A DNA stretch of 36,743 nt from Corallococcus llansteffanensis. GTDB taxonomy: Bacteria; Myxococcota; Myxococcia; Myxococcales; Myxococcaceae. A program made the position numbers and the translations under genes. This document shows, piece by piece, positions 7,400-32,509 of this stretch (positions within the stretch are counted from its first letter, which is position 1; each line of letters opens with the position of its first letter). The DNA is taken from contig NZ_RAWB01000022.1 of assembly GCF_003612055.1 (NCBI RefSeq), positions 1-36,743 on the forward strand, in the 5' to 3' direction. The notes below the pieces were generated by a model. The model was not told where the DNA came from. It worked only from the letters and a program-made list of their open reading frames with translations, and searched no databases.

Positions 7400-7427
7400 C
7401 GGAGCGCACCGTCAGGTCGTCACCATG

Positions 7428-7457
7428 AAGAAAGGGGCGACCGTTCCCGGCCGCCCC
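7428..7457 (-). terminator. Rho-independent terminator closing the beta-glucan operon
   Basis: In minus-strand RNA a 10-bp stem (7457-7448 with 7443-7434) with the stable GGAA tetraloop is followed by UUUCUU. The single wobble pair (G-U) is paired only in the minus-strand RNA, which fits the direction. It lies 23 nt after the GH3 stop and before the M1-type gene. Confidence 0.82.
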
Positions 7458-7480
7458 TCCCCTTTAGCGCTTCACTTCAC

Positions 7481-10400
7481 CTACTTCGTGAACGTGATGG
7501 GACCCGTGGACAGCGTGGTGTTGTTCGCACCGTCCACCGCGCGCACGCGCCAGGTGTGCGTGCCCGTGGCCAGCCCGGTCACCGTCGTCTGCTCGGTGCC
7601 CACGCCGTACACCTCGAACTCCCACAGCGAGTAGCCATAGGCCGTCGCGCGCTGCACACCGCGCATGCGCACGTAGCGACCCACGCCCGTCAGGCCCGTC
7701 CAGTCGTCGATGCCACCGTCGCCGGTGTCCACCGTCTTCAGCGCCACCCAGTTGGTCGCGCCGTCCAGCGACGTCTCCACGACGTAGCGCCGGCCGTACG
7801 CGGCCTCCCAGTTCAAGAGCACGCGCTTGACGGAGTAGATGGCGCCCAGGTCCACCGTGATGGAGTCGGTGTCACCCGTCGTCGCCGTGCCGACGCTCGA
7901 CCAACGCGTCGTCAGGCTGCCGTCCACCGCGTCGTTCGGGCTGCCGAACTCGGACGAGGTGGCCACCACGTTCTTGCCCCTCGCCAGGTTCGTCCCGGCG
8001 GGGGTCGCCGCGCTCCGCAGGATGGCCGGGCTCCGGTCCGCCCCGTCCACGATGAGCACGTACTGCGCCACGCCCGCGCCCACGTCCGTGGTCTGCTCCC
8101 AGATGAAGCGCGTGGACGTCCCCGGCACCGCCTGGCCCGCCGACGGCGACAGCGCCGCGAAGGCCGCCGGAGGCGTCGTGTCGTTCAGCGTGAAGGTGAA
8201 CGTGGGGGACTGCGTCACCCCGTTCGCCCAGTTGAACGCCTTGACGAACCAGGTGTGCGTCCCGTTCGCCAGCTTCAGGCTCTCCAGCGGAGCCGACGGC
8301 GTCTTCGTGATCGCCACCGGCGCGGCGCCGCCGTCGATGAAGACCTCGTAGCGCTGGATGCCCGTCTGCGGATCGCTGCTCGCGTTCCAGGTGAACGCCG
8401 GCCGCGTGGTGGTGATGACCACGTTGTTCGCCGGCGTCAGCAGGCTGAACGCCACCGGCGCCGTCGCATCCGTCAGGCCGAAGCCCTGGATGCCCACGCC
8501 GTACTGGAACAGCGGGTTGCCGTAGATGGGCTCGATGTGCTGACCCGTGGCGATCTTCTGGCGGATGGTCGCCCGCTCCGCGTCCGTCGCGCCCAGATCG
8601 TACGGCAGGTCCCACCGCTCCAGCTGGCCACTCTCCACGTCCGTGCCAATCTGGCTCATGGAGCGCGGCAGCTGCCACGGCGTCTTGCCGCGCGGCAGCA
8701 CGTCACCGAACAGCACGTCCGCCACCGCGTAGCCGCCCATGTCGCCGGGACGGTACGCAATCAGCAGCGCGTTGGTGATGGGCATCACGTTCGTCAGGAT
8801 GTACGGCCGCGGCATGATCATCACCGTGGTCGTGGGGATGCCCCGCGACTTGAAGCTGTTGATGACGCCGAACTGGTCGCCCCACTTCGCGTCGTGGGCC
8901 GGGCCAATCGGGTCACCGGGCAGGTACGGCTTCTCCTTGTCCCACTCCGTGCCGTGGGTGAAGTAGCTCTCACCCACCACCACGATGGCCGCATCCGGCG
9001 TCACGCCCGCGGGGGCGTTGTCCTTGTAGACCGTGAGCCCCGCGGCCTCCGCGCGCGCCTTCACCGCCGCGTAGATGGTCGGGTCGCCGAACTCGTAGCC
9101 GTGGAAGTCCGAACGCCAGGTCACCATGCAGGACATGTCGTCCGCGCGGGGACCCGCGATGACGATCTTCCCACCCGCCGGCAGCCGCACCGGCAGCACG
9201 CCGTCGTTCTTGATCAGCGTCATCGCCTCTTGCGAAGCGCGGCGCACCGCCGCCTTGCTGTCCGCGGTGTGCCACTCGGAGGTGCCTGCGGGGCCCTGCT
9301 TGTACGGGTCCTCGAAGATGCCCAGGCGGAACTTCAGGTCGAGGATGCGGCGCACCGAATCGTTGATCCGGGACAGCGGCACCTCGTTCTCGAAGTTGGC
9401 CATCGCGGACGGCGTCGCGCCGCCCATGACGTCCGAACCCGCCGTGGCGGAACGCACCCACGAGCCCGAAGGCAGCCAGTCCGAGCAGATGACGCCGTCG
9501 TACTTCAGCTTGGTGCGCAGGTAGTTGAGGATGCCCGGGTTGTCACCCGCGCCGTACCCCTCCGGCCCCAAGAGCCAGCTGCCGGCGTAGCCCGGCATGA
9601 TGCCGCTCGTGCCCGCCTCGATGGCCGCGTGCCACGGACGCATGTGGTAGTGGATGGTGGTGCCGTCGTAGGTGATGCCGGCCTCACCACCGGCGCCCTG
9701 CCCCGGCCAGTGCTTCGTCGTCACCCAGATGGAGTTCGGGTTCACTTCCGGACCACCCTGGAGGCCGGCGATCAGCGCGCGGGTGATGCCCGCCGCGAGG
9801 TCGGCGTCCTCGCCGTTGCCCTCCTGGATGCGCGGATAGAGGACCTTGGTGTTCACCTCCGCCAGAGGCGACAGCGTGCCGCGGCTGCCAATGGCGATCT
9901 GCTCCTTCCGCTGGATGTCACCCATCTCGTAGATGGTGTCCAGGTCGCGCGACGCGGCGAGCGCCGGCTGCGTGGGCCAGCTCGTCTTGTAGCCGTGGAT
10001 GGAGTCACCCGCGTCGATGTGCGGGATGCCCAGCCGGGTGGCCGCGGACGCCTTCTGGAACATCGGGATGTCCGTGGGGGACAGCGGCCCCATCTGGAAG
10101 CCCGCCTCCGGGTAGACCTTGGCGTCGTAGAACATCTGCATCGCCTTCTCGTGCAGCGTCATCCGGCCCATCAGGTCGTTCACGCGAACGGAGATGGGGT
10201 TGCGCCAGTCCTCGTACGGGTCGATGACGCCGTTCTTGTTCAGGTCGCGCGAGCCGTTGATGACGTTGACGCCATCCGCCTGCGTCTCCACCGTCGGCAG
10301 GTACACGCTGAAGTTGCCGATGTCGGAGCGGGGCGTGCTGCCCGACAGCGTCGCGACGACGTACCACTTGTACGTCCAGCGATCCGGCAGGTCCTCCGTG

Positions 10401-11974
10401 AAGGTGAAGGACGTGCCCGTCTGCGACGCCACCTGCGTGTAGCGATCCAGCAGGTTGCCCGCCGCCATCCAGTCGTAGTCGTTGCGCGTCAGGTTGACGT
10501 AGAGCTTGTAGTTCGTCGCGCCCGTGACGGGGGCCCACGTCAGCGTGGGACGCCGGGTCGCGGTGACCATCGCGTTGTTCGCCGGCGACACCAGCCGGAA
10601 GGAACCCGCCACCGCCATCGGCGCGGGGGCCACATACGGGTCCGGGATGATGGTGGGGTCACGAGGATCCGTGGTGCCACCCGTGGCGAAGATCTCCACG
10701 TTCCAGTCCGCGCCCTGCACCGCCAGCGCGCTGACGGACTGCCCGCGCTGCTGGGTGCCGTTGTAGTCCACCACCGCCAGCCGGATGTCCGTGTTGGGCT
10801 GGGTGGGCGAGAACTGGTTCTTCGACAGCGTCACTGTCGTGTTGGGCGGGAACGTGAGCTGGTAGGTGAACGGCCCGGGCGGGTTGCGCACGGACGGCGT
10901 GGTGTTGCCCTCCTCCGGCACGGGCGTGACGCTCAGCGGCGCGGGCGACACGTTGATCTTCGCGTACGCCAGCTCCGGGAAGTTCAGCTTGATGGTCTGG
11001 TTGGTGGTCTGCGTCGGCGGCGGGTTCGTGCCGCCGGACTGGTAGACCTCGAAGGACCACAGCGAATAGCCGTAGCCGGTGCCGCGCTCGGTGCCGCGCA
11101 TGCGGAGGTACCGGTACGTGCCGGAGACGGGGATCTCCCGCCTGCCGATCGCGCCGTTGGTCACCGTGTTGAGCGTGGTCCACTGGGCGTCGTCGTTGGA
11201 GCCGTCAATCGTATACGTCTTGCCGTAGGCACCTTCCCAGTCCAGCACCACCTTGCCCACCACCTGGGACGTGCCCAGGTCCACGCGGATCCACTGGGGG
11301 TCCGCGGCATTGGAGGCCCAGCGCGTCGTCGCGAGCCCGTCGAACGCGAAGCCCGGCAGCAGGAACTCGGAGTTGCCCTCCACGCTGGACGCCGTGGCCG
11401 GCCTGTTCTTCGCCAGGTCCGTGTTGGTTGGCGGCGGCGTGCCCCCCGTCTCATAGATGGCGAACTCCCAGAGGGAATAGCCATACGCGCCCGCGCGCGC
11501 GACGCCCTGCATGCGCACGTAGCGGCCCGTGGTCCCCGCCGGCAGGGACAGGTCGTCCACCAGGCCGTCGCCGTTGGTCACGGTGAGCGCGTCCGTGAAG
11601 GCCGTGCCGTTGGCGGACACCTGGATCTTGTAGCCCGTGGCGTAACCCGCCTCCCAGGTCAGCACCACGCGCGAAATCGTGCGCGTCTGCCCCAGGTCCA
11701 CGGTGATCCATTCATTGTTCGTGAAGTTGCTGCCCCAGCGCGTGCCGCCGTCGCCGTCCACCGCGTACTGCCCCAGGAAGTTGCCTTCCGCGGAGGACGT
11801 CGTGGTGGGCCTGTTCAACGCCACGTTCGTCTGGGCCTGGGCCGGCGCGGCGCCCAGCACGGTCAGCAGCAGCGCCGCCGCCACGAAGGCGCGGTAAAGC
11901 CAGACACCGGGTGGCGCTTCCAGCAGGACCGGGCGCACGCCCGTTCTTGACAATTGAGAGGAAGATTCAGACAT
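7481..11974 (-). CDS. Secreted GH3 beta-glucosidase/exo-beta-glucanase with three F5/8C (discoidin) domains
   Basis: This 1497-aa enzyme has a long signal region ending in APAQAQ (about residue 47). Two discoidin domains follow (about 48-175 and 184-315), each ending in GYSLWEFAIYE or GYSLWSFEVYQ. Next are a beta-rich region, an FN3-like module (about 445-560), and an EF-hand-like DLNKNGVIDPYEDW. The GH3 N-domain runs from about 589; DGVICSDWLPSG holds the predicted nucleophile Asp832. The GH3 C-domain extends to about 1165, followed by two FN3-like modules, the second interrupted by a third discoidin domain (about 1325-1458). The family removes terminal glucose from beta-1,3 or beta-1,4 glucans; the discoidin modules probably bind the polymer or cell surface. 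AAGGAG stands 10 nt before the start. It is the last gene of the operon, 217 bp after its neighbour, and is followed by a terminator. Confidence 0.92.
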   Translation of the reverse strand: MSESSSQLSRTGVRPVLLEAPPGVWLYRAFVAAALLLTVLGAAPAQAQTNVALNRPTTTSSAEGNFLGQYAVDGDGGTRWGSNFTNNEWITVDLGQTRTISRVVLTWEAGYATGYKIQVSANGTAFTDALTVTNGDGLVDDLSLPAGTTGRYVRMQGVARAGAYGYSLWEFAIYETGGTPPPTNTDLAKNRPATASSVEGNSEFLLPGFAFDGLATTRWASNAADPQWIRVDLGTSQVVGKVVLDWEGAYGKTYTIDGSNDDAQWTTLNTVTNGAIGRREIPVSGTYRYLRMRGTERGTGYGYSLWSFEVYQSGGTNPPPTQTTNQTIKLNFPELAYAKINVSPAPLSVTPVPEEGNTTPSVRNPPGPFTYQLTFPPNTTVTLSKNQFSPTQPNTDIRLAVVDYNGTQQRGQSVSALAVQGADWNVEIFATGGTTDPRDPTIIPDPYVAPAPMAVAGSFRLVSPANNAMVTATRRPTLTWAPVTGATNYKLYVNLTRNDYDWMAAGNLLDRYTQVASQTGTSFTFTEDLPDRWTYKWYVVATLSGSTPRSDIGNFSVYLPTVETQADGVNVINGSRDLNKNGVIDPYEDWRNPISVRVNDLMGRMTLHEKAMQMFYDAKVYPEAGFQMGPLSPTDIPMFQKASAATRLGIPHIDAGDSIHGYKTSWPTQPALAASRDLDTIYEMGDIQRKEQIAIGSRGTLSPLAEVNTKVLYPRIQEGNGEDADLAAGITRALIAGLQGGPEVNPNSIWVTTKHWPGQGAGGEAGITYDGTTIHYHMRPWHAAIEAGTSGIMPGYAGSWLLGPEGYGAGDNPGILNYLRTKLKYDGVICSDWLPSGSWVRSATAGSDVMGGATPSAMANFENEVPLSRINDSVRRILDLKFRLGIFEDPYKQGPAGTSEWHTADSKAAVRRASQEAMTLIKNDGVLPVRLPAGGKIVIAGPRADDMSCMVTWRSDFHGYEFGDPTIYAAVKARAEAAGLTVYKDNAPAGVTPDAAIVVVGESYFTHGTEWDKEKPYLPGDPIGPAHDAKWGDQFGVINSFKSRGIPTTTVMIMPRPYILTNVMPITNALLIAYRPGDMGGYAVADVLFGDVLPRGKTPWQLPRSMSQIGTDVESGQLERWDLPYDLGATDAERATIRQKIATGQHIEPIYGNPLFQYGVGIQGFGLTDATAPVAFSLLTPANNVVITTTRPAFTWNASSDPQTGIQRYEVFIDGGAAPVAITKTPSAPLESLKLANGTHTWFVKAFNWANGVTQSPTFTFTLNDTTPPAAFAALSPSAGQAVPGTSTRFIWEQTTDVGAGVAQYVLIVDGADRSPAILRSAATPAGTNLARGKNVVATSSEFGSPNDAVDGSLTTRWSSVGTATTGDTDSITVDLGAIYSVKRVLLNWEAAYGRRYVVETSLDGATNWVALKTVDTGDGGIDDWTGLTGVGRYVRMRGVQRATAYGYSLWEFEVYGVGTEQTTVTGLATGTHTWRVRAVDGANNTTLSTGPITFTK

Positions 11975-12191: not shown

Positions 12192-12860
12192 CTAGTTCGC
12201 GGTGAAGTACAAGTTGTCGAGCAGGAGGAACTGGCCCGCGGCTCCGCCTTCCGCGGCGAAGGTGAACGGTGCCGAAACGGCGTTGAGCTTCAGGCCCGCC
12301 GCGGTGTAGTCCGCGACCGGGATGGCCAGGTGGTGCCACTCCCCGTCATTCACCCAGCCGTACTTCGAGACGGCGAGCTGGAAGCCCTTTTCATTGGCAG
12401 CCAGGCCGCTCGACATGCCGACCTTCACGTTCGCGAACGCGGGGTCCGCGGACTTCATGCTGACGTGGAGCGTCTTCCAGGCGTCCAGGTTGCGCTCGGC
12501 CTTCCAGTGCACGCCGAAGCCCATCCACGGCTTGCCGTTCTGGACGATGCGGTCGGCGGACTTGCCCTCCACGCGGTCGGGATCCGACTCCACGTAGACG
12601 GTGCTCTCGTAGAGGTAGAAGTTCGTGTCGACGTTGTCGAGCACCACATCCTCCGAGCGACCCGTCTCGTAGAAGATGCCCACCATCAGGCGACGCTGGC
12701 CCGCTTCATACGGGAACGGCCCGGGCAGCAGCTGCGAGGCCGGCTCCGTGCCTCCGTCCGTGTCGGTGCCCACGGGGCCCTGGTCGGTGTAGTCCGCCGG
12801 GCCCGGATCCGGGCGGCAGGCGGCGAGCAGCAACAGCAATCCCCACACAGGCTTCTTCAT
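12192..12860 (-). CDS. Lipoprotein with jelly-roll, carbohydrate-binding-like domain
   Basis: This is a 222-aa lipoprotein with a signal peptide ending in LLLLLAACRP (Cys15). After a Gly/Thr/Asp-rich linker, residues of about 55-222 form a beta-sandwich pattern: RRLMVGIFYETG, NFYLYESTVYVESDP, MGFGVHWKAERNLDAWKTLHV, then NDGEWHHLAIPVADY and a final FLLLDNLYFTAN. Ending on a calcium or sugar-facing LDNLYF strand is typical of galactose-binding-like and CBM-type domains, and the region resembles the C-terminal domain of ExoP-type GH3 glucanases. No catalytic motif is seen. It is probably a surface or periplasmic beta-glucan-binding protein. Its ATG overlaps the stop of the preceding gene (ATGA), so the two lipoproteins are translationally coupled and probably function together. 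Confidence 0.75.
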   Translation of the reverse strand: MKKPVWGLLLLLAACRPDPGPADYTDQGPVGTDTDGGTEPASQLLPGPFPYEAGQRRLMVGIFYETGRSEDVVLDNVDTNFYLYESTVYVESDPDRVEGKSADRIVQNGKPWMGFGVHWKAERNLDAWKTLHVSMKSADPAFANVKVGMSSGLAANEKGFQLAVSKYGWVNDGEWHHLAIPVADYTAAGLKLNAVSAPFTFAAEGGAAGQFLLLDNLYFTAN

Positions 12861-13411
12861 GGCTTCACCGCCCGGTCCGCACCGCTTGAGGTCTTCACCA
12901 TCACCCAGCCGCCGCTCACCGTTCCGCCCAGCTCCACGACGCCCTTGTACGAGGGCGTCACCAGCTCATAGGCGATGGTGCCGGACGCGTCGTACGTCAC
13001 CGCGTCCGGGAAGTTGTCGAGCACGGACTGGAAGGCCTTCACCGCCATCTCCCGCGTCTGCGGGAGGCTGGCCTGATCCGCGAGGCCCCGCTGGTAGATG
13101 GCCGCGAGCTGGAGGCCCACGTAGTACTGCGCTTCACCGTACGGCCCCTGCGCCAGGATGGTGGCCCACGAGTAGTAGCCCGCCACGGGGCTCGCCCCGG
13201 ACTGGATGTCCCACTTCGTCTCCGTGCCCACGCCCGACAACCGGAAGGGGTTGTACGGGTCGTCCAGCACGGACGTGTTCGGGTAGATGCCCATCTGCGG
13301 GTCGGTGACCGTGAAGGTCATGTCCTCCAGCGAGCGGCCGTAGAGGATGGTCGGTTCGTCGTAGCAGCCGGACAGGGCCACCGCGGCGGCCAGCAGGAAA
13401 CCCGTCTTCAT
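12857..13411 (-). CDS. Small lipoprotein of unknown function in the glucan operon
   Basis: This 184-aa protein has a signal peptide ending in VALSGCYDEP (Cys16). The start at 13411 is chosen because it gives a standard lipoprotein leader and has GAGGG about 10 nt upstream; the in-frame ATG at 13444 would overlap the previous gene. I recognise no family. The mature part contains ASPVAGYYSWATILAQGPYG, a helical YYVGLQLAAIYQRGLADQ and a closing beta-rich stretch with SGTIAYELVTPSYKG and VSGGWVMVKTS. It lies 13 bp behind the hydrolase-barrel gene and is coupled to the jelly-roll lipoprotein gene. A role as a surface glycan-binding or barrel-associated lipoprotein is a guess from position. Confidence 0.7.
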   Translation of the reverse strand: MKTGFLLAAAVALSGCYDEPTILYGRSLEDMTFTVTDPQMGIYPNTSVLDDPYNPFRLSGVGTETKWDIQSGASPVAGYYSWATILAQGPYGEAQYYVGLQLAAIYQRGLADQASLPQTREMAVKAFQSVLDNFPDAVTYDASGTIAYELVTPSYKGVVELGGTVSGGWVMVKTSSGADRAVKP

Positions 13412-13424
13412 GATGCGTCGTCCC

Positions 13425-16400
13425 TCAGAGAGAAAGGATGGCATACGCGCCCACCTCGTACTCGCGACCCTTCAGGCCCTCGGTGATGCCCCGGTCGTTG
13501 AGGCCCTCCGAGTACTCATCCAACATGCGGACCAGCCCGCGCAGACCGAAGCGCGTGGACACCGCGCCCAGCACCGGCTTCTTCAACCCGTAGGACAGGT
13601 CCCCGCCCAGCTGCACCGGGTACGTGAGGTTGAAGACGCGGTGGTAGTCGTAGGGACCCCAGTCGTTGAAGTGCAGCTGGGCCGCGAGCAGCAGCGTGTC
13701 GTAGAGCACCGAGCCGTCCAGGCCGAAGCGGTGCACCTGCCGGTTGTCCTCGCCGGAGGACTGGTTGCTGCCCACGAACGCCGTGCCGAACAGGCGCAGG
13801 CGCTGCGACGGGTTGCCCACCAGGCGCAGCGACGTCTCCCACTCGTCCCGGGCGACCGGCGCGCTGCCGAACGCCACGGTGCTGCCGTCCGCGAGGATGG
13901 CGATGCCGGCGTCACGCGACGTGGGCTGGTGGCGGTAGACGATGTCCAGGCCCGCGGCGAACGGCGCGTCCTCGCGCAGGTCCCTGTCCCACGCCCAGAA
14001 CCAGGTGCCGGGTGTCGGGTCGAACGTGATGAGCAATTCCCCGCCCAGCGTCTCGCGGTTGTCCAACACGGTGAAGGCATCCACCAGCACGTTGCGGGGG
14101 CGCACGCCCGCGTAGTAGCGGCCGGTGTCCGGGTCGAACGCGTCGGAGATGGTCGGGTTCGGCCCGACGAGGGGCTTCTGGTAGAGCAGGTTCGGCGAGA
14201 CTTGAATCGTGCCGAACTGCAGCGCCGCGCCCAGCTGGCCGGCGTAGTGGTTGCCTCGGCCGCTCTCGCGCAGGCTCCAGCCGGTGATGATGTTGCCCTG
14301 CTCCGGGCCGCTGTCCGCGACGAGGCCGCGGATGGAGGACTGGACGAGCCAGCGCACCATGCCCATGTCGTAGGTGAGCCGCGCCTTCGCGCCCAGCGTG
14401 TCCAGGAACTGCACCTTGTCCTGGAGCACGTCGTAGCCGCTGTTGAGGTAGCTGGGCGCATCCGCCGCCGCGCGGCGCGTATAGGTGAACGTCTCCCCGA
14501 TGCGCTGGGGCGCGGCCAGGAGGCCGCCCACGTCGAGCACGAGCTTGCCGGTGGCGTACTGGAAGTTCAGCGCCGTCCTGCGCGCGATGCGCTCGCGCAC
14601 CACGGAGGCCGTGTTGGACGAAGCGCCCTGGGCCAGGTCCTCCTGGTGCACCAGCGTCACGTTCACCGGGCCCACGTTGTTGCGGTACTTGGCCACGGCG
14701 GACGGGTTGGCGCCCCAGTACAGCTCCGGGCCCACCGCGACCTTCAAGCCCTCGATGGCGCGCTTGCCGGTGAACACGACGCCGAAGGGCGCATTGCCGT
14801 GGTAGATGTCCAGGTTCGGGCCGTAGTTGGCCTCGCGGTAGAGGCCGAAGAAGTCACCCTCCTCGCCCCAGTGGTAGTGGCCGGTGCGGTAGTAGCCCTC
14901 GAGCGCGAAGTCCGTCCGGTCCAGCTTGAACTCCGCCTGGTACAGCGCGAAGCGATCCAGCGGCGAGTTCGACTGCGGCACGGCGCCCGGGCCCGTCGGG
15001 ATGACGTTCGTCCCCGGAGTGGAGGGCGTGCCGCGGTTCTCGTAGAACAGGTTGTTGAGCCGGTTCTGCGCCACGTTGCCCACGACGTTGAACGACGCGC
15101 GGCCGTAGACGCCGCTGGCCGGCTGCAACGCGAGGTCGAAGAAGATGGATTCGGTGTGGTCCGCGGAGCTCTGGTTGGGCCGCACCGTCGCGATGCTGCC
15201 GCGCGACAGCGAGCTGTCCAGGAGCAGCCGCAGGTTGGACACCCGCACCGCGCTCAGTTCCTCCGTGCGAGCCAGCGCCACCGACGACGTGTAGCTGCTG
15301 GTGAGCGAGGAGGGACGGATGGACCCGAAGTGCTGGCGGATGGTGTCCGGGTTGGTGTTCGGCGCGTACGGGTCCAGGCGGAAGGCGGCCTGGAGCACGT
15401 AGTAGGCGGTGCGCGGCTGGAGGCCGCTGATGCCATTGTCGTCCGGCGGGCCCAGGGCCGCGATGCCGAACCACTCCTCGTTCATGTTGTTCTGGCCGGG
15501 GACGAAGTCCGCCGTGTAGCCCCCGTTGGGCCAGGACGCGGTGGTGTCGTGGATGGAGAGGTTGGCCTCCTGGCCCATCTTCCACCAGCCGTCCACCCAC
15601 TGGAACACGAAGCCGCCCACGGCGGTGCCCGACATCCCCTGGCCGTAGCTCTCCAGGTAGATCTGCTCCCACTGCGTGCGCAGGTACTCCGCCTGCGCGA
15701 CGTGGTCCTCGCGGCCCGCGCGGGCGTCGTACGCATCCGCGCCGAACTCGGAGAAGAACACCGGCTTGTTGAGCTTCTGCTTCACCTCCGCGAACAGGTC
15801 GCGCGCGGTGGCGCCGCGGTAGACGTTCGTGCCCAGCACGTCCAGGTCCTGGCAGTACTTCGCGATGAGGTCGATGTACTGGAGGTCGCCGTTGGCGATG
15901 GACACCGGGTGGTTCGTGTCCCGCTTCTTCACCGTGCGGGTCGCCTCACCGTAGAGCGTGTAGAGCGACTCCGCGCGCGCCGCGTCCTCATGGCCGGGCA
16001 GCGCCTCGATCTCGAACGACGTCCAGTGCAGGCCGTAGTTGTTCTCGTTGCCCAGGAGCCACATCAGGACGCCGGGCACGTCCCGGTACACTTCGACCTT
16101 CTGCGCCAGCGCGTCCAGGATGGCCTGGCGGTGCGCGGGGTTCGAGTAGTCGATGTTGGGGACCATCACCCCGTTGACGGCGTGGCCGTAGCGGCCCATC
16201 AACGGGTTGAGCATCGTGTAGATGCCGTAGTTCCGGTAGATGTACTCGACCCAGACGGGCGGGATGTCGTCGAACTGGCGGATGGCGTTGATGCCCGCGT
16301 CGCGCAGCAGGCCCATCTCCTTGGCCAGCACCTGCTTGATGAAGTCCTCCGGCTGGTTCCAGAGCGAGTAGCGGTAGTTCTCACCAATGGGCGTGTAGCC

Positions 16401-16712
16401 CCAGTTGATGCCGTGGATGGCGAAGTCCTTGCCGTCCACCTGGAGCTTGAAGCCGCGCTCGTCGTGGATCACGCGCGTCACCGTCGTCTTCACGGCGGCC
16501 CCCGGCGTCGCGGCCACGGGCGGCGGCGCCGGAGCGACCTCGGGAGCCGGGGCTGGAGCAGCGGTCTCGGGAGCCGCGGCGGCGTCCACGGGGCCCGCGG
16601 TGGGCGGCTGGCTCGCGGCCGGCGCCTGGGCGGGAGCCCCTGCCCCGGGCTGCTGGGCCAGCGCCTGCGCGCCGCACAACGCCAGACACGTCGTCAGGAA
16701 GAGCTTTTTCAA
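13425..16712 (-). CDS. Clan GH-A (GH2-like) glycoside hydrolase fused to a predicted outer-membrane beta-barrel
   Basis: This is a 1095-aa protein with signal peptide MKKLFLTTCLALCGAQALAQ. A Pro/Ala linker (about 20-75) leads to a TIM-barrel hydrolase domain (about 76-430) with FAIHGINWGYTPIG, LLGNENNYGL and FFSEFGADAYD. Glu223 (in GNEN) and Glu322 (in SEFG) fit the acid/base and nucleophile of clan GH-A, nearest to GH2-type catalytic domains. Residues of about 450-1095 lack catalytic motifs and consist of many alternating polar/apolar strands rich in Tyr, Trp and Gly (RFALYQAEFKLDRTDFALEG, LEGYYRTGHYHWG, VAVGPELYWG), ending in a strand EYEVGAYAILSL. This looks like an outer-membrane barrel that could tether the enzyme or act as a channel. 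The start overlaps the GH1 stop by ATGA. Substrate specificity is inferred from the operon, not from the sequence. Confidence 0.82.
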   Translation of the reverse strand: MKKLFLTTCLALCGAQALAQQPGAGAPAQAPAASQPPTAGPVDAAAAPETAAPAPAPEVAPAPPPVAATPGAAVKTTVTRVIHDERGFKLQVDGKDFAIHGINWGYTPIGENYRYSLWNQPEDFIKQVLAKEMGLLRDAGINAIRQFDDIPPVWVEYIYRNYGIYTMLNPLMGRYGHAVNGVMVPNIDYSNPAHRQAILDALAQKVEVYRDVPGVLMWLLGNENNYGLHWTSFEIEALPGHEDAARAESLYTLYGEATRTVKKRDTNHPVSIANGDLQYIDLIAKYCQDLDVLGTNVYRGATARDLFAEVKQKLNKPVFFSEFGADAYDARAGREDHVAQAEYLRTQWEQIYLESYGQGMSGTAVGGFVFQWVDGWWKMGQEANLSIHDTTASWPNGGYTADFVPGQNNMNEEWFGIAALGPPDDNGISGLQPRTAYYVLQAAFRLDPYAPNTNPDTIRQHFGSIRPSSLTSSYTSSVALARTEELSAVRVSNLRLLLDSSLSRGSIATVRPNQSSADHTESIFFDLALQPASGVYGRASFNVVGNVAQNRLNNLFYENRGTPSTPGTNVIPTGPGAVPQSNSPLDRFALYQAEFKLDRTDFALEGYYRTGHYHWGEEGDFFGLYREANYGPNLDIYHGNAPFGVVFTGKRAIEGLKVAVGPELYWGANPSAVAKYRNNVGPVNVTLVHQEDLAQGASSNTASVVRERIARRTALNFQYATGKLVLDVGGLLAAPQRIGETFTYTRRAAADAPSYLNSGYDVLQDKVQFLDTLGAKARLTYDMGMVRWLVQSSIRGLVADSGPEQGNIITGWSLRESGRGNHYAGQLGAALQFGTIQVSPNLLYQKPLVGPNPTISDAFDPDTGRYYAGVRPRNVLVDAFTVLDNRETLGGELLITFDPTPGTWFWAWDRDLREDAPFAAGLDIVYRHQPTSRDAGIAILADGSTVAFGSAPVARDEWETSLRLVGNPSQRLRLFGTAFVGSNQSSGEDNRQVHRFGLDGSVLYDTLLLAAQLHFNDWGPYDYHRVFNLTYPVQLGGDLSYGLKKPVLGAVSTRFGLRGLVRMLDEYSEGLNDRGITEGLKGREYEVGAYAILSL

Positions 16713-18079
16713 GCGGCCTGCTCCACGTCCAGCCCGTTCTGGGCCACGACGTCACGGTAGAGGTGGGCACTGTCCTTCGGGATGCGCTGCTGGGTGGCGT
16801 AGTCCACATAGACGAGGCCGAAGCGCTTCTCGTACCCGTACGCCCACTCGAAGTTGTCCAGGAGCGACCAGGCGAAGTAGCCCGCCAGGTTCACGCCCTG
16901 CCCGATGGCGTCACTGCACGCCTCCAGGTGGGTGCGCAGGTAGTCCACGCGCTTCACGTCGTGCACGCGCCCGTCCGCGCTGGGGCCGGTGGAGTACGCG
17001 CAGCCGTTCTCCGTGATGTAGATGGGGCCGGGCTTGTATTCGGTCTGCAGGTGGACGAGGAGCTTCGTGAGCCCCTGCGGGTACACCTCCCAGTCCATGT
17101 CCGTCTTGTCCGGGCGCACGTGCACGGTGCGCGGCGCGTTCTTCTCCTCCGGGATGCGGTTGCTGCGCAGCACGGCGCGCGAGTAGTAGTTCACGCCCAG
17201 GAAGTCGGTGGGCTCCGCGATCGCCTTCAGGTCGCCGTCCTGGATGAAGTCCAGCGAGGCGGAAGGGATGCGGCCCGCCTTCACGTGGTCCTCCACGACG
17301 TCCATGGGGTAGCCGCGGCCGTAGAGCGGCTCCAGGAACCAGCGGTTGAAGCCACCGTCGAAGTCACGGCACGCGTCGGCGTCCTCGGGGCTGGGTGACG
17401 CGGGCTCGCCGGGCGTGAGGTTGAGGGTGATGCCCACCTCCGCGCGCTGCACGTTGGAGCGGATGGCCTGGACCGCCTTGCCGTGCGACAGCAGCAGGGT
17501 GTGGGACGTGGCGAGCGCCTTCGTCCAGTCCTTGTGGCCCGGCGCGTGCTCGCCGTTGCCGTAGCCCAGCACGCTGATGCACCAGGGCTCGTTGTGGGTG
17601 ATCCACCGCTTCACGCGGTCACCCAGCGCGCGGCTCATCACGTCCGCGTACTCCACGAAGGCGTCACCGGTGGCGCGCGCCGGCCAGCCGCCCTGATCCT
17701 CCAGCACCTGCGGCAGGTCCCAGTGGTAGAGCGTGACGAAGGGCTCGATGCCCGCGCCCAGCAGCGAGTCCACCAGCTTGGAGTAGAAGTCCACGCCCGC
17801 GACGTTCACGCGGCCCCGCCCTTCCGGGAGGATGCGCGGCCACGCGACGGAGAAGCGGTAGGACTTCAGCCCCATCCAACGCATCAGTTCGATGTCCTCC
17901 GGCCAGCGGCGGTAGTGCTCACACGCCACCGAGCCGTCGGACTTGTCGTTGATCTTCCCGGGCGTGGCGGCGAAGCGGTCCCAGATGGACTCGCCACGGC
18001 CGTCAGCGCGGGTGGCACCTTCAATCTGATACGCGGAGGTGGCCACACCCCAGAGGAAGTCAGGAGGAAACTGACGCAT
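16709..18079 (-). CDS. GH1 beta-glucosidase, cytoplasmic
   Basis: This is a 456-aa protein of normal GH1 length without a signal peptide. The N-terminus MRQFPPDFLWGVATSAYQIE is the GH1 signature. The acid/base Glu164 lies in ITHNEPW and the nucleophile Glu357 in YITENGCAY. WSLLDNFEWAYGYEKRFGL near the C-terminus completes the glycone-binding set. It hydrolyses cellobiose, laminaribiose or similar beta-glucosides to glucose after import. The start at 18079 has AAAGGAG about 9 nt upstream; longer readings of the frame run into the ATPase gene and are rejected. The first 20 bp overlap the end of the ATPase gene, linking uptake and intracellular cleavage. Confidence 0.95.
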   Translation of the reverse strand: MRQFPPDFLWGVATSAYQIEGATRADGRGESIWDRFAATPGKINDKSDGSVACEHYRRWPEDIELMRWMGLKSYRFSVAWPRILPEGRGRVNVAGVDFYSKLVDSLLGAGIEPFVTLYHWDLPQVLEDQGGWPARATGDAFVEYADVMSRALGDRVKRWITHNEPWCISVLGYGNGEHAPGHKDWTKALATSHTLLLSHGKAVQAIRSNVQRAEVGITLNLTPGEPASPSPEDADACRDFDGGFNRWFLEPLYGRGYPMDVVEDHVKAGRIPSASLDFIQDGDLKAIAEPTDFLGVNYYSRAVLRSNRIPEEKNAPRTVHVRPDKTDMDWEVYPQGLTKLLVHLQTEYKPGPIYITENGCAYSTGPSADGRVHDVKRVDYLRTHLEACSDAIGQGVNLAGYFAWSLLDNFEWAYGYEKRFGLVYVDYATQQRIPKDSAHLYRDVVAQNGLDVEQAA

Positions 18080-19055
18080 CGGCGGTAACTCCTTTCGAAG
18101 CTTCGAGGTGGCAGCGGACCAGGTGGTTCGCGGCCGGCAGGACGTTGGGAGGGGGAACGGTGGAGCAGCGCGCCTCGGACACCGGGCAGCGCGGGGCGAA
18201 GGGGCAGCCCACGAGCGGAGGCAGGCCCGTGGCGGGGCGCACCGGCAGCGCCGCCTGGAGGAAGTCCGCGCCATCCGGCACGGCCGACAGCAGGAGCTTC
18301 GTGTACGGGTGGCGCGGCTGGCCCAGCACCTGTTCGGCGCGGCCCGCCTCCACCACCGTGCCCGCGTAGAGCACGAGGATGCGGTCTGCCAGGTGCCGCG
18401 CGCTCGCCAGGTCGTGGGTGATGAACAGGATGCCGATGCCGCGCTCCTGCGTGAGCCCGCGCAGCAACTGCAGCACGCCCTTGCGCGTGGACACGTCCAG
18501 CATGGAGGTGGGCTCGTCCGCGATGATGACCTGCGGCTCCACCGCCAGGGCGCGCGCCACCGCCACGCGCTGGCGCTGGCCGCCGGACAGCTCATGCGGG
18601 AAGCGCTTGGCGAACTGGTCCGCGGGCGTCAGGCCCACCGACTCCAGGAGCGACAGCACCTTGGTGCGCAGCCCGGACTTCGGCACCCGGCCGTGGCGCA
18701 CGAGCGGCCGCTCCAGGTGATAGGCCACCGTGTGCACGGGGTTGAGCGACGCGAACGGATCCTGGAACACCATCTGCACGCGCCCGCGGTAGTCGAGCGA
18801 CGCCTGGGCGCTGTCATCCGACAGCACGTCGCGGCCGGCGAGGCGCAGGTGGCCCGCGTCGGGCATGTCCAGCCGGGCCAGCAGCCGCGCCAGGGTGCTC
18901 TTGCCGCTGCCGGACTCGCCCACCAGCGCGACGATCTCCCCCGGCTGCAGGGAGAAGGACACGCCCTTGAGGATGGGCCGGCGCTCGCGGGAGAAGAAGC
19001 CGCCCACGGAGAAGCTACGGGTGAGGCCTTCGGCCTCCAGGAGGGGCGCGCTCAT
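18060..19055 (-). CDS. ABC importer ATPase, oligopeptide/beta-glucoside (OppF/DppF) type
   Basis: This 331-aa ATPase has Walker A GESGSGKST (about residues 45-53), FQDPFASLNP Q-loop, signature LSGGQRQRV (about 156-164) and Walker B VIIADEPTSMLD. It also carries the C-terminal oligopeptide-transporter extension with cysteines in CPFAPRCPVSEARC, which in this subfamily forms an Fe-S or metal site. It energises the importer together with the permease-ATPase fusion encoded upstream. Its ATG overlaps that gene by ATGA. The Opp/Dpp family includes cellobiose and beta-glucan importers, and the flanking GH1 and GH16 genes make sugar a more likely cargo than peptides. Confidence 0.92.
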   Translation of the reverse strand: MSAPLLEAEGLTRSFSVGGFFSRERRPILKGVSFSLQPGEIVALVGESGSGKSTLARLLARLDMPDAGHLRLAGRDVLSDDSAQASLDYRGRVQMVFQDPFASLNPVHTVAYHLERPLVRHGRVPKSGLRTKVLSLLESVGLTPADQFAKRFPHELSGGQRQRVAVARALAVEPQVIIADEPTSMLDVSTRKGVLQLLRGLTQERGIGILFITHDLASARHLADRILVLYAGTVVEAGRAEQVLGQPRHPYTKLLLSAVPDGADFLQAALPVRPATGLPPLVGCPFAPRCPVSEARCSTVPPPNVLPAANHLVRCHLEASKGVTADASVSS

Positions 19056-20821
19056 CGGTGACCTCCAGGGATGGCGGCGATGCGCGTGGACGGCCGGGCC
19101 ACCGACAGCTCGGAGACCGCCGGCGGATGCGGCGTGACGGACACATCCCCCGCGACGAGGTGCGGGAACGACGACAGGAGCAGCTGCGTGTACGGGTGGC
19201 GCGCCCCGGTGCGCAGGCCCTCGGAGGTGTTCACCTCCACCAGCTTGCCGCCCTGGAGGATGCCCACGCGGTCCGACAGCGCGAGCAGGAGCGGCAGGTC
19301 GTGCGTGATGAAGAGGATGGCGAAGCCCAGGCGCTGCTTGAGCTCCAGCATGCGCTGGAGCAGCTCCTTCTGGACCACGACGTCCAGCGCCGTGGTGGGC
19401 TCGTCCATGATGACCAGCCGGGGCTCCAGCGCCAGCGCCAGCGCGATGCCCACCCGCTGCCGCATGCCGCCGGAGAGCTGGTGGGGATACGCCGTGACGA
19501 GGTCCGGCGACAGACCCACCATGCCCAGCAGCTCGCGCGCGCGGGCGTAGGACGCCGTGCGGGACACGCGGCCGTGCGCCGCCAGCGTGTCGTGGAACTG
19601 CTCGCCCAGCGTGAGCACCGGGTTGAGCGCGCTCATCGCGCTCTGGAACACCATGGACACCTGGCGCCAGCGGAAGGCGCGCAGGCCGGCGCCCTCCAGC
19701 GCGGTGACGTCCATGCCGTTGAAGAGGATGCGGCCCTGCGTGACGCGCGCGGAGGAAGGCAGCAGGCCCAGCAGGGCCGAGCCAATGGTGGACTTGCCGC
19801 TGCCGGACTCGCCCGCGAGGCCGAACACCTCACCGGGCGCCAGGTCGAAGGACACCGTGTCCACCACGCGCGAGGCGCCCTTCTCCGTCGCGTAGTCGAT
19901 GCACAGGTCCTGCACGCTCAGCAGCACGCCCGGCGCGGGCCGGTCCACGTGCACCGGGAGGGTGGTGCCCCTGGGCAGCGGCGCGGGCTTGTGCACGCGC
20001 AGCGCGGGGTTGGTGAGCTCATCGATGGCGGAGCTCACCAGCGTCAGCGCGAAGCCGACGAGCGCGATGCCCAGGCCCGTGGGGACGAAGATCCACCACG
20101 AGCGCGTGAGCAGCGCCGCGTCGTTGCCGGCCCAGTAGAGGTTCGTGCCCCACGTCACCGCGCTCACGTCGCCCAGGCCCAGGAACTCCAGGCCCACCTG
20201 CGCGCCCACGGCATAGAGCGTGTTTCCAATGAACGACGAGCCCAAGAGCGACGCCATGTTGGGCAACAGCTCCCGCGACACGATGCGCGCGTGGCTCTCC
20301 CCCGTCACCACCGCGGCGGACACGAAGTCGCGCCCACGCAGGGCCAGCGACTCCGCGCGGAAGACGCGCGCGTTCCAGGCCCAGCCCGCCACCGTCAGCA
20401 CCGCCACCATGCGCAGGGGGCCGGACGGCAGGTAGGCGCCCAGCACGATGGCCAGCGGCATGCCGGGAATCACGAGGAACACGTTGGTGGTGAGCGACAG
20501 CACGTCGTCCACGCGGCGGCCCAGGTAGCCCGCCGTCACGCCCACGAGCGCGCCCACCAGCGTGACGAGCGCGCCCACCGCGAAGCCCACCGCCAGCGTC
20601 TCTCGCGCGCCCACCACCGTCTGGGCGAGCACATCCTGGCCCTGCCCCGTGGTGCCGAACCAGTGCGCGGAGGACGGCGGCTGGTGCGGCCGGCCGACGA
20701 GCTCCGACGGATCCATCACGAACCAGGGGCCCACCAGCGCGAGCAGCAGGAAGAACAGCAGGAGGCTGCCGCCCACCGCGGCCTTCCGGTGGCGGAGGAG
20801 GCTTCGCAGGGAGTCATGCAT
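19052..20821 (-). CDS. Fused ABC permease (DppC type) and ATPase (DppD type)
   Basis: This 589-aa protein combines two normally separate subunits. Residues 1 to about 270 are a DppC-like permease with an N-terminal membrane segment (AAVGGSLLLFFLLLALVGPW), HWFGTTGQGQDVLAQTVVGA and further hydrophobic helices. Residues of about 305-589 are an ATPase with Walker A GESGSGKST (about 335), signature LSGGMRQRV (about 446), Walker B LVIMDEPTTALD and HPYTQLLLSSFP near the end. The joint is a Pro-rich linker around 285-300. Together with the separate permease and ATPase it forms a complete importer core. It overlaps the upstream permease gene by 8 bp. Such fusions exist in this transporter family; here the operon context points to glucan oligosaccharides. 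Confidence 0.92.
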   Translation of the reverse strand: MHDSLRSLLRHRKAAVGGSLLLFFLLLALVGPWFVMDPSELVGRPHQPPSSAHWFGTTGQGQDVLAQTVVGARETLAVGFAVGALVTLVGALVGVTAGYLGRRVDDVLSLTTNVFLVIPGMPLAIVLGAYLPSGPLRMVAVLTVAGWAWNARVFRAESLALRGRDFVSAAVVTGESHARIVSRELLPNMASLLGSSFIGNTLYAVGAQVGLEFLGLGDVSAVTWGTNLYWAGNDAALLTRSWWIFVPTGLGIALVGFALTLVSSAIDELTNPALRVHKPAPLPRGTTLPVHVDRPAPGVLLSVQDLCIDYATEKGASRVVDTVSFDLAPGEVFGLAGESGSGKSTIGSALLGLLPSSARVTQGRILFNGMDVTALEGAGLRAFRWRQVSMVFQSAMSALNPVLTLGEQFHDTLAAHGRVSRTASYARARELLGMVGLSPDLVTAYPHQLSGGMRQRVGIALALALEPRLVIMDEPTTALDVVVQKELLQRMLELKQRLGFAILFITHDLPLLLALSDRVGILQGGKLVEVNTSEGLRTGARHPYTQLLLSSFPHLVAGDVSVTPHPPAVSELSVARPSTRIAAIPGGHR

Positions 20822-21797
20822 GGGCGCGGGTCCTCGGATCCAACCAGAGGCAGATGAGGTCCACGGCGAAGTTCGCCGCGAGCACCGCCAGGGTGATGAC
20901 CAGGAACAGCCCCTGCATCAGCGGGTAGTCCTGGTTGCGCACGGCGAGGATGAGCAGGTAGCCCGTGCCCGGATAGGAGAAGACGATCTCCGTGAGCAGC
21001 GAGCCGCTCAGCACGAAGCCCACCGCCATGCCGAAGCTGGTGACGTTGGGCAAGAGCGCGTTGCGCGCCGCGTACCGCAGCATCACCTGCCGGGGCGGCA
21101 GGCCGCGCGCGTGCGCCAGCCGGATGGAGTCCGTGCCCAGCGTGGTCACCATCGTGTTGCGCATGCCGAGCATCCACCCGCCCAGCGTGGCCACGACGAT
21201 GGACGCCGCCGGCAGCACCGCGTGCCGGGCCACGTCCGCGGCGAACGCGAACGTCAGCCCCGGCTCCATGTCGTGCCCGTACGCGTGGCGCAGCGGGAAC
21301 CACCCCAGCACGAAGCCGAAGAGGTACAGCGCCAGCATCGCCAGCCAGAAGTATGGAAACGCCCCCAGGAACGCGAGCGCGGGGGACAGGCCGGAGTCCA
21401 GCCACCCTCCCCGGTTCCACGCGGCGAGCACGCCCAGGAAGGACCCCAGCGCGAAGCTGATGATGACCGCCACGCCCGCCAGCGCCACCGTCCACATCAG
21501 GCCGGTGCCGATCACCTCCGTCACCCGCGCGGGGAAGTACGCGTACGACATGCCCAGGTCGCCCTGCAGCAGGTGCTTCAGGTACGTGAAGTACTGCGAG
21601 TAGAGCGGCGCGTCGGTGAAGCCGAAGGCGGCCTTGAGCGCGGTCATCGCCTCCGGCTGCACCTTGCCCTTGAAGCGGGCGAACATGGCGGACGCCGGAT
21701 CGCCGGGGGCCAGGCGCGGGATGACGAAGTTGAGCGTGAGCGAGGCCCACGCGGCGATGAGGTAGAAGCCCAGCCGCCGGAAGATGTAGCGACCCAT
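20814..21797 (-). CDS. ABC importer permease, OppB/DppB type
   Basis: This 327-aa inner-membrane protein begins with MGRYIFRRLGFYLIAAWASL, a typical DppB N-terminus. LNFVIPRLAPGDPASAMFA follows, and then about five further hydrophobic segments (VAVIISFALGSFLGVLAAW, FWLAMLALYLFGFVLGWFPL and others). It contains the ARGLPPRQVMLRYAARNALLP cytoplasmic coupling region and ends with VDLICLWLDPRTR. It pairs with the DppC-like half of the fused protein encoded downstream. It starts 2 bp after the stop of the binding-protein gene. Confidence 0.93.
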   Translation of the reverse strand: MGRYIFRRLGFYLIAAWASLTLNFVIPRLAPGDPASAMFARFKGKVQPEAMTALKAAFGFTDAPLYSQYFTYLKHLLQGDLGMSYAYFPARVTEVIGTGLMWTVALAGVAVIISFALGSFLGVLAAWNRGGWLDSGLSPALAFLGAFPYFWLAMLALYLFGFVLGWFPLRHAYGHDMEPGLTFAFAADVARHAVLPAASIVVATLGGWMLGMRNTMVTTLGTDSIRLAHARGLPPRQVMLRYAARNALLPNVTSFGMAVGFVLSGSLLTEIVFSYPGTGYLLILAVRNQDYPLMQGLFLVITLAVLAANFAVDLICLWLDPRTRAHA

Positions 21798-21799
21798 GG

Positions 21800-23443
21800 T
21801 CAGCGCTCCCGGGGGGCGAGCTCCGTCAGCACCAGCAGGCTGTCGGGCTCCGCGTGCGGCGCGAGCCGCGCATAGGGGTTCTGTTCGGTGGGGAAGCCCG
21901 TGAAGCGCAGCGAGTTGGACTCGCCCCAGGACGGGTTGGGGAACAGCGGGATGGCGGGCGCCGTGGCGGAGAAGCGCCGCTGCACCGCGGACATCAGCGC
22001 GTGCTGCTCCTCCAACGTGCCCGCGCGCTCGAAGCGCACGAGCAATTCATCCGCCTCCGCGTCCCCCAGCCGGTGCCAGTTGGCCGCCGCCACCTCGCCC
22101 ACCGGGACCACCGTGCGCGGGGAAAGCAGCCACTTGTAGAAGTTGTACGGCGTGGGCCCGTCCAGCGACCAGGAGATGGCCAGCTGGAACTCGCCCTTCT
22201 GCAGGCGCGTGAGCCACGTGCCGAACTCGTACGTCTTGAGCTGCACGGAGATGCCGAGCTTGCGCAGGTCGCGGCTCACCACCTGCCCCGCCCGCACCCA
22301 GTCCGACCACCCGCTCACCACCTCCAGGTCCAGCGCGAAGGGCTTGCCGTCCGGCAGCCGGCGGAGGCCATCCGCGCCGCGCGTCAGGCCCGCTTCATCC
22401 AGGAGTTTGTTCGCCTGGGCGAGATCGTAGTGCGTCCACGCATCCTTCGCGACCTCTGGGTCCTTCCAGTCGGTGTACGCGTCGTTGAGGGCGGTGGCGT
22501 CCGCGGGGCGCGTGTAGCCGTACATGGCCACCTCCACCAGCCGCTCGCGGTCCAGCGCCATGCTCAGCGCCTTGCGCACGCGCACGTCATCCAGCGGCGG
22601 CCGCGTGGTGTTGGGGTACAGGAAGACGGTGCTGCCGTAGAGCGGGAACCAGCGGTTGTGGTGCGCCGGGTCGCGGGCGACGAAGGTGCGGTCCACGGCC
22701 GGCACGAAGTTGCCCGCCCAGTCCACCTCCCCCTCCACCAGCGCCATGTTGGCCTGGTCGTTGGTGGGGAACGCGAGGAAGCGCAGCGCGGACACCGCGG
22801 GCTTGCCGGGCATCCAGTAGTGCGGGTTGCGGCCCAGCTCGTACACCTGGTTGCGGAACAGCGTCACCTGGGTGAAGGGCCCCGTGGCCACCGGCTCCGG
22901 GTTGGTGAACGTCACCGGATCCGCGACGTGCTCCCAGATGTGCCGGGGCACGACGATCTGGTGCGCCAGGTAGGTGAAGCCGGGCAGGAACACGCGCGAG
23001 AAGGAGAAGGCCACGGTGTGGGGCCCCTCCGCCTTCACGTCGGTGATGAAGCTCCACACGCCGCCGGCATCCAGGGCCTGGTGCTTCTTCAGGAGGCCGA
23101 AGGTGAAGACGACGTCATCCGCGGTGAAGGGCTTGCCGTCGGACCAGAGGACGTTCTCGCGCAGCGTGAAGCGCAGCGTCTTCTGGTCCTCCGTCCACGC
23201 ATGCGCGGTGGCGAGCCAGGGCACCCACTGGCCCTTCGCGGAGCTGAAGACCTCCATGCACTCGTAGACGCCCGCCCGCGTGGGCCAGCGGGCCCCGGCG
23301 CCCGCGAACAGCGGGTTGAAGTTGCGCACCCACGCGCTCTGCTGCTCCACGGACACGAAGAGCACGCCGGGCGGACGCGGGCGCGGCTCCGAGGAGCACG
23401 CCAGCAGCAGCACCAGCGGCAGCAGCACGCGGGCGGACTTCAC
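21800..23443 (-). CDS. Extracellular solute-binding lipoprotein, family 5 (Opp/Dpp/Cbt type)
   Basis: This 547-aa lipoprotein starts at a GTG at 23443 that overlaps the stop of the GH16 gene by GTGA. No ATG gives the signal peptide, which ends in LVLLLACSSEP (Cys16). The mature protein has the family-5 pattern: NFNPLFAGAGARW, TLRFTLRENVLWSDGKPFTADDVVFTF, YPNTTRPPLDDVRVRKALSM and LDRERLVEVAMYGY. It captures ligand in the periplasm and hands it to the importer. Cellobiose and beta-glucan binding proteins belong to this family, and the gene's place between GH16 and the permease supports beta-gluco-oligosaccharides as cargo. Frame extension upstream of the GTG lies inside the GH16 gene and is rejected. 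Confidence 0.9.
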   Translation of the reverse strand: MKSARVLLPLVLLLACSSEPRPRPPGVLFVSVEQQSAWVRNFNPLFAGAGARWPTRAGVYECMEVFSSAKGQWVPWLATAHAWTEDQKTLRFTLRENVLWSDGKPFTADDVVFTFGLLKKHQALDAGGVWSFITDVKAEGPHTVAFSFSRVFLPGFTYLAHQIVVPRHIWEHVADPVTFTNPEPVATGPFTQVTLFRNQVYELGRNPHYWMPGKPAVSALRFLAFPTNDQANMALVEGEVDWAGNFVPAVDRTFVARDPAHHNRWFPLYGSTVFLYPNTTRPPLDDVRVRKALSMALDRERLVEVAMYGYTRPADATALNDAYTDWKDPEVAKDAWTHYDLAQANKLLDEAGLTRGADGLRRLPDGKPFALDLEVVSGWSDWVRAGQVVSRDLRKLGISVQLKTYEFGTWLTRLQKGEFQLAISWSLDGPTPYNFYKWLLSPRTVVPVGEVAAANWHRLGDAEADELLVRFERAGTLEEQHALMSAVQRRFSATAPAIPLFPNPSWGESNSLRFTGFPTEQNPYARLAPHAEPDSLLVLTELAPRER

Positions 23444-32350: not shown

Positions 32351-32351
32351 G

Positions 32352-32378
32352 GAGACTCCGTGTTGGGTACAGAGTCTC
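32352..32378 (-). promoter_or_regulatory. mRNA hairpin occluding the ribosome binding site of the lamin-tail lipoprotein
   Basis: In minus-strand RNA, GAGACUCUGU (32378-32369) pairs with ACGGAGUCUC (32361-32352) around a 7-nt loop, making 10 bp with one G-U pair valid only on this strand. The Shine-Dalgarno GGAG (32359-32356) is wholly inside the stem, which ends one base before the AUG at 32350. Translation would need the helix to open. Confidence 0.6.
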
Positions 32379-32509
32379 TTCCAAACCACAAAATTACAGG
32401 CCGACGCAAACTCGCCCCGGCACTTTCAGGCCCCCTCTTTCCCCCTGGCGGGCGCCTCGGATTCCCCAAAACCCGACAACCCTGGCGAGGCGGATCCGCG
32501 GACGCGGGC

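Follow-up and report, generated by a model that had tools for sequence, protein, structure and literature searches.

The window analysed here, the 36,743 nucleotides at positions 1 to 36,743 of contig NZ_RAWB01000022.1 from Corallococcus llansteffanensis (NCBI RefSeq assembly GCF_003612055.1), contains a gene whose product joins a glycoside hydrolase (GH) domain to a predicted C-terminal outer-membrane beta-barrel. This fusion architecture is close to certain, and it is judged slightly more probable than otherwise that the product is a bifunctional protein of beta-1,3-glucan utilization, in which the barrel would serve uptake and the GH158-like domain would cut on the periplasmic side, making import one-way without TonB. 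The gene lies at 13425..16712 on the minus strand, as do all window features given below unless marked otherwise, and encodes 1095 residues from a TTG start codon that overlaps by four bases with the stop codon at the end of the GH1 gene upstream. An earlier note, made from the sequence alone, had described this frame, and its coordinates and length proved exact. Homologue searches indicate that the architecture as a whole is kept in other genera and in a second phylum.

The protein begins with a signal peptide recognized by eye (residues 1-20, 16653..16712), which lacks a lipobox, followed by a Pro/Ala-rich linker (residues 21-76, 16485..16652) that is seen in the aligned rows of Corallococcus, Pyxidicoccus, Archangium, and M. 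dinghuensis and is short or missing in most of the Bacteroidota rows printed. Sequence, AlphaFold model, and Foldseek place a TIM-barrel hydrolase of the GH158-like type, clan GH-A, at residues 79-425 (15438..16478). In the AlphaFold models a helical connector follows (residues 426-489, 15246..15437), after which the outer-membrane barrel fills residues 490-1095 (13428..15245) with about 26 strands, or 24 should a weak pair at 741-766 prove spurious. The model refines the 76-430 given for the hydrolase in the earlier note to about 79-425. Its claim that strands continue to the C-terminus holds, since the modelled strands run to 1094. Its start of the membrane strands at residue 430 does not, because they begin near 490, behind a helical stretch at about 435-486.

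The only Pfam match in the whole protein is Glyco_hydro_2_C (residues 126-343, 3e-7, 30 bits). The best matches in the PDB, by sequence and by fold, are two GH158 beta-1,3-glucanases, BuGH158 (6pal) and GH158(Pro) (9oro), which share with the fusion the TIM barrel and the N-E and E contexts of the active site. Their likeness in sequence is remote and covers parts of the domain only (phmmer 1.7e-8 over 188 residues, and 1.2e-4); a profile search returned GH158 structures at 4.7e-7 and 5.3e-7, and Foldseek with the whole protein ranked GH158 structures first through sixth. E223 (LGNEN, 16044..16046), the predicted acid/base, and E322 (SEFG, 15747..15749), the predicted nucleophile, are invariant in all 54 rows of an alignment that omits L001, L017, L018, L020, L022, and L123, and N222 is likewise invariant (54/54). 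E223 and E322 align with the LGNE and TEFG of 9oro, and E322 with the TEWG of 6pal; N222-E223 and E322 show the clan GH-A pattern of N-E after strand 4 and E after strand 7. The two glutamates thus stand where the earlier note had located them (GNEN and SEFG), and its assignment to a clan GH-A pair is upheld by the GH158 alignment. Activity of BuGH158 is reported to require N136, E137, and E220 (PMC7157763). BuGH158 is also described as carrying an Ig-like domain after its TIM barrel, whereas in both models the fusion has instead the helical connector and then the outer-membrane barrel. GH2 enzymes occur among the Foldseek matches of the enzyme half, but GH2 proper was rejected, as Pfam sees the TIM domain only, preceded by about 55 linker residues and without sugar-binding and Ig-like domains. 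The same genome has a second gene with a GH158-like stretch (L024, 919-3261, minus strand), which is 36% identical to the fusion over residues 187-327 of the latter and is not matched by the barrel profile.

That the C-terminal region is an outer-membrane beta-barrel is very likely, as judged from models and fold matches. AlphaFold, run on alignments of 16-18 sequences comprising the window protein and proteins of its relatives, gave a mean pLDDT of 66.7 and a pTM of 0.47 at full length, and 70.6 and 0.66 for residues 406-1095 alone. Both models place antiparallel strands from about residue 490 to 1094, with the count of 26 (or 24) given above. Hydrophobic alternation in the 26 modelled strands reaches 2.34, against 1.57 ± 0.22 in within-strand shuffles, of which 8 in 10,000 attain the observed value. 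With the barrel alone, Foldseek returned outer-membrane barrels, the best of them at 2.3e-9; with the whole protein, the GH158 structures were followed by siderophore receptors, MOMP, FimD, LptD, MtrB, and some GH2 enzymes (best barrel 2.3e-7). Nearly all of the 50 VIA matches listed are outer-membrane barrels, bacterial or mitochondrial, among them MOMP, AlgE, FimD, OprD-type channels, chitoporin, and maltoporin (Z 11-14, mostly 6-8 Angstrom, about 300 residues), as well as PelBC and Wzi; matches other than bacterial outer-membrane barrels are VDAC, TOM, and one apolipoprotein. A family missing from the VIA matches listed is not thereby excluded. These fold matches cover part of the barrel, so that the class is clear and yet no known barrel is close.

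Neither Pfam (E<=1) nor NCBIfam (E<=0.1) gave a family match to the barrel region. Pfam gave no plug or TonB-receptor domain anywhere in the protein, as a TonB-dependent transporter or SusC would have, nor a match to maltoporin, chitoporin, or AlgE. What is found is the set of features expected of an outer-membrane barrel: a signal peptide by eye, an even number of amphipathic strands reaching the C-terminus, and a barrel fold in the models. A soluble beta-sandwich or beta-helix, the result that the earlier note had set against its own proposal, appears neither in the AlphaFold models nor among the VIA and Foldseek matches listed, and is rejected for this region. The models and matches agree with the proposal that the hydrolase is fused to an outer-membrane-type barrel.

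The two halves travel together. A query with the barrel alone matched 51 of 195 Myxococcota genomes, 15 of them from the same genus, and every large unbroken match lay within a frame of at least 1047 residues. For Bacteroidota, the query was a relative from Bacteroides finegoldii found in a plasmid collection (44% over 90%); matches came from 35 of 395 genomes, and the large ones all lay in frames of 1024-1084 residues (33/33). The halves were not found apart in these 195 and 395 genomes. The short frames met were those of G085, where the gene lies in pieces and the frame changes, of the fragments G184 and G432, of G401, where it is divided between contigs, and of G316, a weak match with a stop. 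In each of eight genomes searched with the barrel profile (E<=1) there was exactly one match, and hence no free or paralogous barrel. A local fusion or frameshift artefact is excluded by the recurrence of the full-length frame in other genera and in Bacteroidota. In a tree of the 54 rows, built quickly and carrying a long-branch warning, 23 Bacteroidota rows lie beyond a single branch (support 100) and adjoin the Myxococcota rows L114 and L122, which makes a transfer of the fusion between the phyla possible. Further genes at the B. finegoldii locus (L055, 9850-22900) encode BglX, a DUF6377 protein, and a member of the fimbrillin family, and its annotation includes no SusC/D; its record is labelled a plasmid yet carries valS and rpsA, and may be a piece of chromosome.

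The neighbourhood of the gene points to its substrate. Neighbourhoods were taken from 20 of the 35 Bacteroidota genomes with a match and from 15 of the 51 in Myxococcota, and gene content was tallied by tblastn, as open reading frames picked by length gave some wrong frames in high-GC loci. The tallies cover 29 Myxococcota-type loci, some of them near copies of one another and several cut by contig ends, and 22 Bacteroidota loci; left out were L007, L010, L011, L014, L017, L020, and L022 (near copies, fragments, and cut loci) and L019 (Bacteroidota). Among the 22 Bacteroidota loci were found a lipoprotein resembling surface glycan-binding proteins (SGBP; 22 loci), GH16 (21), GH149 (19), a major facilitator superfamily (MFS) transporter (18), GH17 (15), and GH30 (14), and none was matched by the ATP-binding cassette (ABC) or GH1 queries (0/22). 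GH149 was assigned from a match along nearly the whole length to 6hq6, a beta-1,3-oligosaccharide phosphorylase. The 29 Myxococcota-type loci hold an ABC ATPase (27, a query that may also match unrelated ABC genes), GH1 (25), a solute-binding protein (22), GH16 (21), and ROK (20). Three Myxococcota loci, L112, L114, and L122, have a GH149-type partner, with MFS in L112 and L122, and are intermediates between both operon types. From context and fold, it is very likely that the substrate of the locus is a beta-1,3-glucan of the laminarin type.

SusD (PF07980) was found within 20 kb of the fusion in 2 of the 20 Bacteroidota loci, about 3 kb (L108) and about 6 kb (L111) upstream; some contigs end less than 20 kb from the fusion, where a nearby SusD could be missed, and the search did not extend to SusC. 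Of 14 control genomes, one was positive, a Bacteroides. One locus (L094) has two Porin_O_P genes upstream of the fusion. The constancy of the fusion and GH16, while the importer and inner enzymes are exchanged, is what would be expected if the fusion were the outer-membrane step. Because its neighbours are GH16, an importer, and glycosidases or a phosphorylase, with SusD rarely near, the barrel is likely to be the entry pore for gluco-oligosaccharides of beta-1,3-glucan, a polymer common in algae and fungi. The suggestion of the earlier note that the barrel fills an outer-membrane step otherwise missing is accordingly supported by context (GH16 kept, importer exchanged, SusD near in few loci); conduction itself we infer.

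Outer-membrane barrels carry long loops outside and short turns on the periplasmic side, and their chain ends in the periplasm. In the fusion, the mean gap is 19.5 residues after odd strands, with lengths that differ among homologues (mean standard deviation 2.4), and 5.8 residues after even strands, where lengths change little (standard deviation 0.46); the two sets differ in length (Mann-Whitney, p 0.0006) and in variation (p 0.02). Given these loop lengths and the even strand number, strand 1 would be entered from the periplasm, so the enzyme would lie inside as long as it does not pass through the pore. On the modelled topology, the enzyme probably sits at the inner, periplasmic mouth. Anchoring of the enzyme on the cell surface is therefore not the default reading, since the predicted side is the periplasm. 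Mean conservation in 22 representatives is 0.72 for the enzyme, 0.66 for the barrel, and 0.55 for the connector. Four outer loops exceed the barrel average, 1018-1030 (0.94), 663-669 (0.88), 610-642 (0.83), and 796-821 (0.78), and the remaining ones, such as 767-772, do not. Invariant residues are scattered across strands and loops, and a test for enrichment of aromatics in outer loops gave a weak result.

The proposed sequence of events is as follows. GH16 and glycan-binding lipoproteins would capture and shorten the glucan, and the resulting oligosaccharides would pass inward through the barrel of about 26 strands. The GH158-like domain, which precedes strand 1 and would thus face the periplasm, could make a second cut as oligosaccharides leave the pore, and cutting at this exit would make transport unidirectional with no need for TonB. 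At the inner membrane, an ABC or MFS importer would then take over, and GH1 or the phosphorylase would complete the breakdown. A bolder form of this proposal is possible though doubtful, namely that a single protein acts as a TonB-independent importer in which the glucanase caps or plugs the inner mouth of an unusually wide barrel, cutting opens and rectifies the channel, and the whole replaces SusC/D in Myxococcota and part of Bacteroidota. Hydrolysis-gated, TonB-free import is accordingly put forward as a possibility. If true, it would be a second uptake route beside SusCD, in loci mostly without a nearby SusD, and a simple design for coupling transport to catalysis within one polypeptide. 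Such an enzyme-porin is easily missed, because annotation stops at a 'GH2 TIM barrel' and polysaccharide utilization loci are defined by the SusC/D pair.

Several results weigh against periplasmic cutting coupled to uptake. The models reach moderate confidence from their 16-18 sequences and do not fix the placement of the GH domain relative to the barrel, and two of the strands, 12 and 13, show weak amphipathicity. Lumen-facing residues are barely more conserved than lipid-facing ones (35 of 500 shuffles equal the difference), and invariant positions are not enriched in outer loops (27/52 vs. 254/606 positions). In both phyla a lipoprotein gene comes after the fusion; the idea that it is one and the same glycan-binding gene was dropped, as similarity searches did not support homology. 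The window lipoprotein query matched 0 of the 22 Bacteroidota loci, the Bacteroidota SGBP query matched 6 of the 29 loci of the Myxococcota type, but away from their window-type lipoprotein, and pairwise comparison of lipoproteins from the two phyla gave weak similarity (5e-5 across 49 residues and 0.006 across 104). This leaves GH16 as the sole constant partner by homology. Lastly, 18 of the 20 Bacteroidota genomes encode SusD somewhere, which leaves room for a different uptake route; in the other two, whose completeness is not stated, the PF07980 search found none.

The strongest alternative, though a rather unlikely one, is that the enzyme is displayed on the cell surface, exported through or by the barrel in the manner of an autotransporter, so that the barrel is mainly an anchor and the released sugars are taken up through SusCD or different porins. 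In autotransporters a helix precedes the barrel, and the translocator unit has 12 strands in about 280 residues. The models do place a 20-residue helix (467-486) directly before strand 1, and the weak conservation of the channel lining and the SusD of those 18 genomes also suit this alternative. The barrel itself, however, with about 26 strands in 600 residues, is far above the autotransporter unit, and no autotransporter Pfam match was obtained. Nor was an outer-membrane channel family found among the 10 window neighbours scanned, and three of the outer loops that keep their length (663-669, 796-821, and 1018-1030) are conserved above the barrel average, though 767-772 is not.

It is improbable that the barrel exports a beta-glucan exopolysaccharide which the GH domain trims. 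The barrels of PgaA and PelB are smaller than that of the fusion. A periplasmic GH beside an outer-membrane sugar channel is indeed described for poly-N-acetylglucosamine and Pel, in PgaA/PgaB and PelB/PelA, but as separate proteins working in the export direction (PMC9384988), and the fold matches listed include AlgE, PelBC, and Wzi. Against export, no synthase occurs among the window neighbours scanned or in the 25 families listed of the 86 into which 80 neighbours at 10 of the 20 Bacteroidota loci fall, and the neighbours are importers, a phosphorylase, and glycosidases. It is likewise hard to credit that the barrel merely holds the enzyme facing the periplasm while general porins do the transport: the conservation tests do not point directly to a channel specific for sugars, yet a barrel of about 600 residues kept across two phyla would be costly where a lipobox suffices. 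Least likely of all is identity with GluM. In its favour, GluM comes from Corallococcus, the genus of the nearest relatives, and a review describes it as an outer-membrane beta-barrel protein (PMC10971235); against it, the activity reported there is that of a beta-1,6-glucanase, whereas the enzyme domain here is GH158-like and beta-1,3 by family.

Uptake by the barrel with periplasmic cutting can also be set beside known systems. LamB, chitoporin, and AlgE, with 16-18 strands, are VIA fold matches but have no enzyme domain, and the fusion barrel matches none of their Pfam families. The SusC/SusD importers resemble the fusion in combining an outer-membrane barrel with laminarin loci that contain GH16, GH17, GH30, and GH149; they differ in that the fusion lacks a plug or TonB-receptor match, carries its own hydrolase, and rarely has SusD near. 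Selfish uptake in Bacteroidota has been attributed to SusCD (PMC6246565). In Gammaproteobacteria such as Colwellia, loci with GH17, GH16_3, and GH149 are described as having no susCD (PMC10811738). In Muricauda, laminarin loci were described in 2026 with a 'GH2 beta-glycosidase' or beta-1,6-glucosidase beside GH16, GH149, GH17, GH30, and MFS (PMC13188888). From the same neighbours, as described there, this 'GH2' is very likely the fusion protein; the main text of that study never uses the words 'outer membrane,' 'porin,' or 'TonB,' and every 'barrel' in it refers to an enzyme fold. Highly expressed 'GH149-GH0-GH16_3' laminarin loci are reported from a North Sea bloom (PMC10108472), and their unclassified GH0 may be the fusion protein as well. 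Among the best-ranked results of searches in the open-access literature, a coverage that leaves aside subscription papers and preprints, no description of a GH fused to an outer-membrane barrel was found.

Within the window, the fusion is embedded in an operon. Upstream, in order, lie a GH1 protein without a signal peptide by eye (16709..18070), an oligopeptide-type ABC ATPase (18060..19055), a permease and ATPase fused in one protein of an oligopeptide-type ABC importer (19052..20821), an ABC permease (20814..21797), a family-5 solute-binding protein (21800..23443), and a GH16 protein (23440..24285), each identified by family match, followed by a ROK-family regulator (24300..25526), also by family match. 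The solute-binding and GH16 proteins are lipoproteins by eye, and the starts of these two and of GH1 were placed by inference. Downstream of the fusion is a small lipoprotein of no family with an LSGC lipobox by eye and an inferred start (12857..13411; 26/29 Myxococcota-type loci). It could be a dedicated partner of the fusion, as LptE is of LptD. Next come a lipoprotein with a sub-threshold Pfam match to Exop_C, which is galactose-binding-like, making it a candidate glycan-binding protein (12192..12860; 25/29), and a GH3 protein with three F5/8 C stretches (7481..11974; 6/29).

Very long antisense frames run on the plus strand opposite conserved genes, at 5831-11950 (2039 residues) and 13410-16760 (1116 residues), and are probably a codon shadow of the GC-rich sequence. 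The latter was rejected as the gene, as the minus-strand frame is the one conserved elsewhere. Proteins carrying long T/D/A/G repeats are encoded at 25575-26333 and 30482-32389 on the minus strand.

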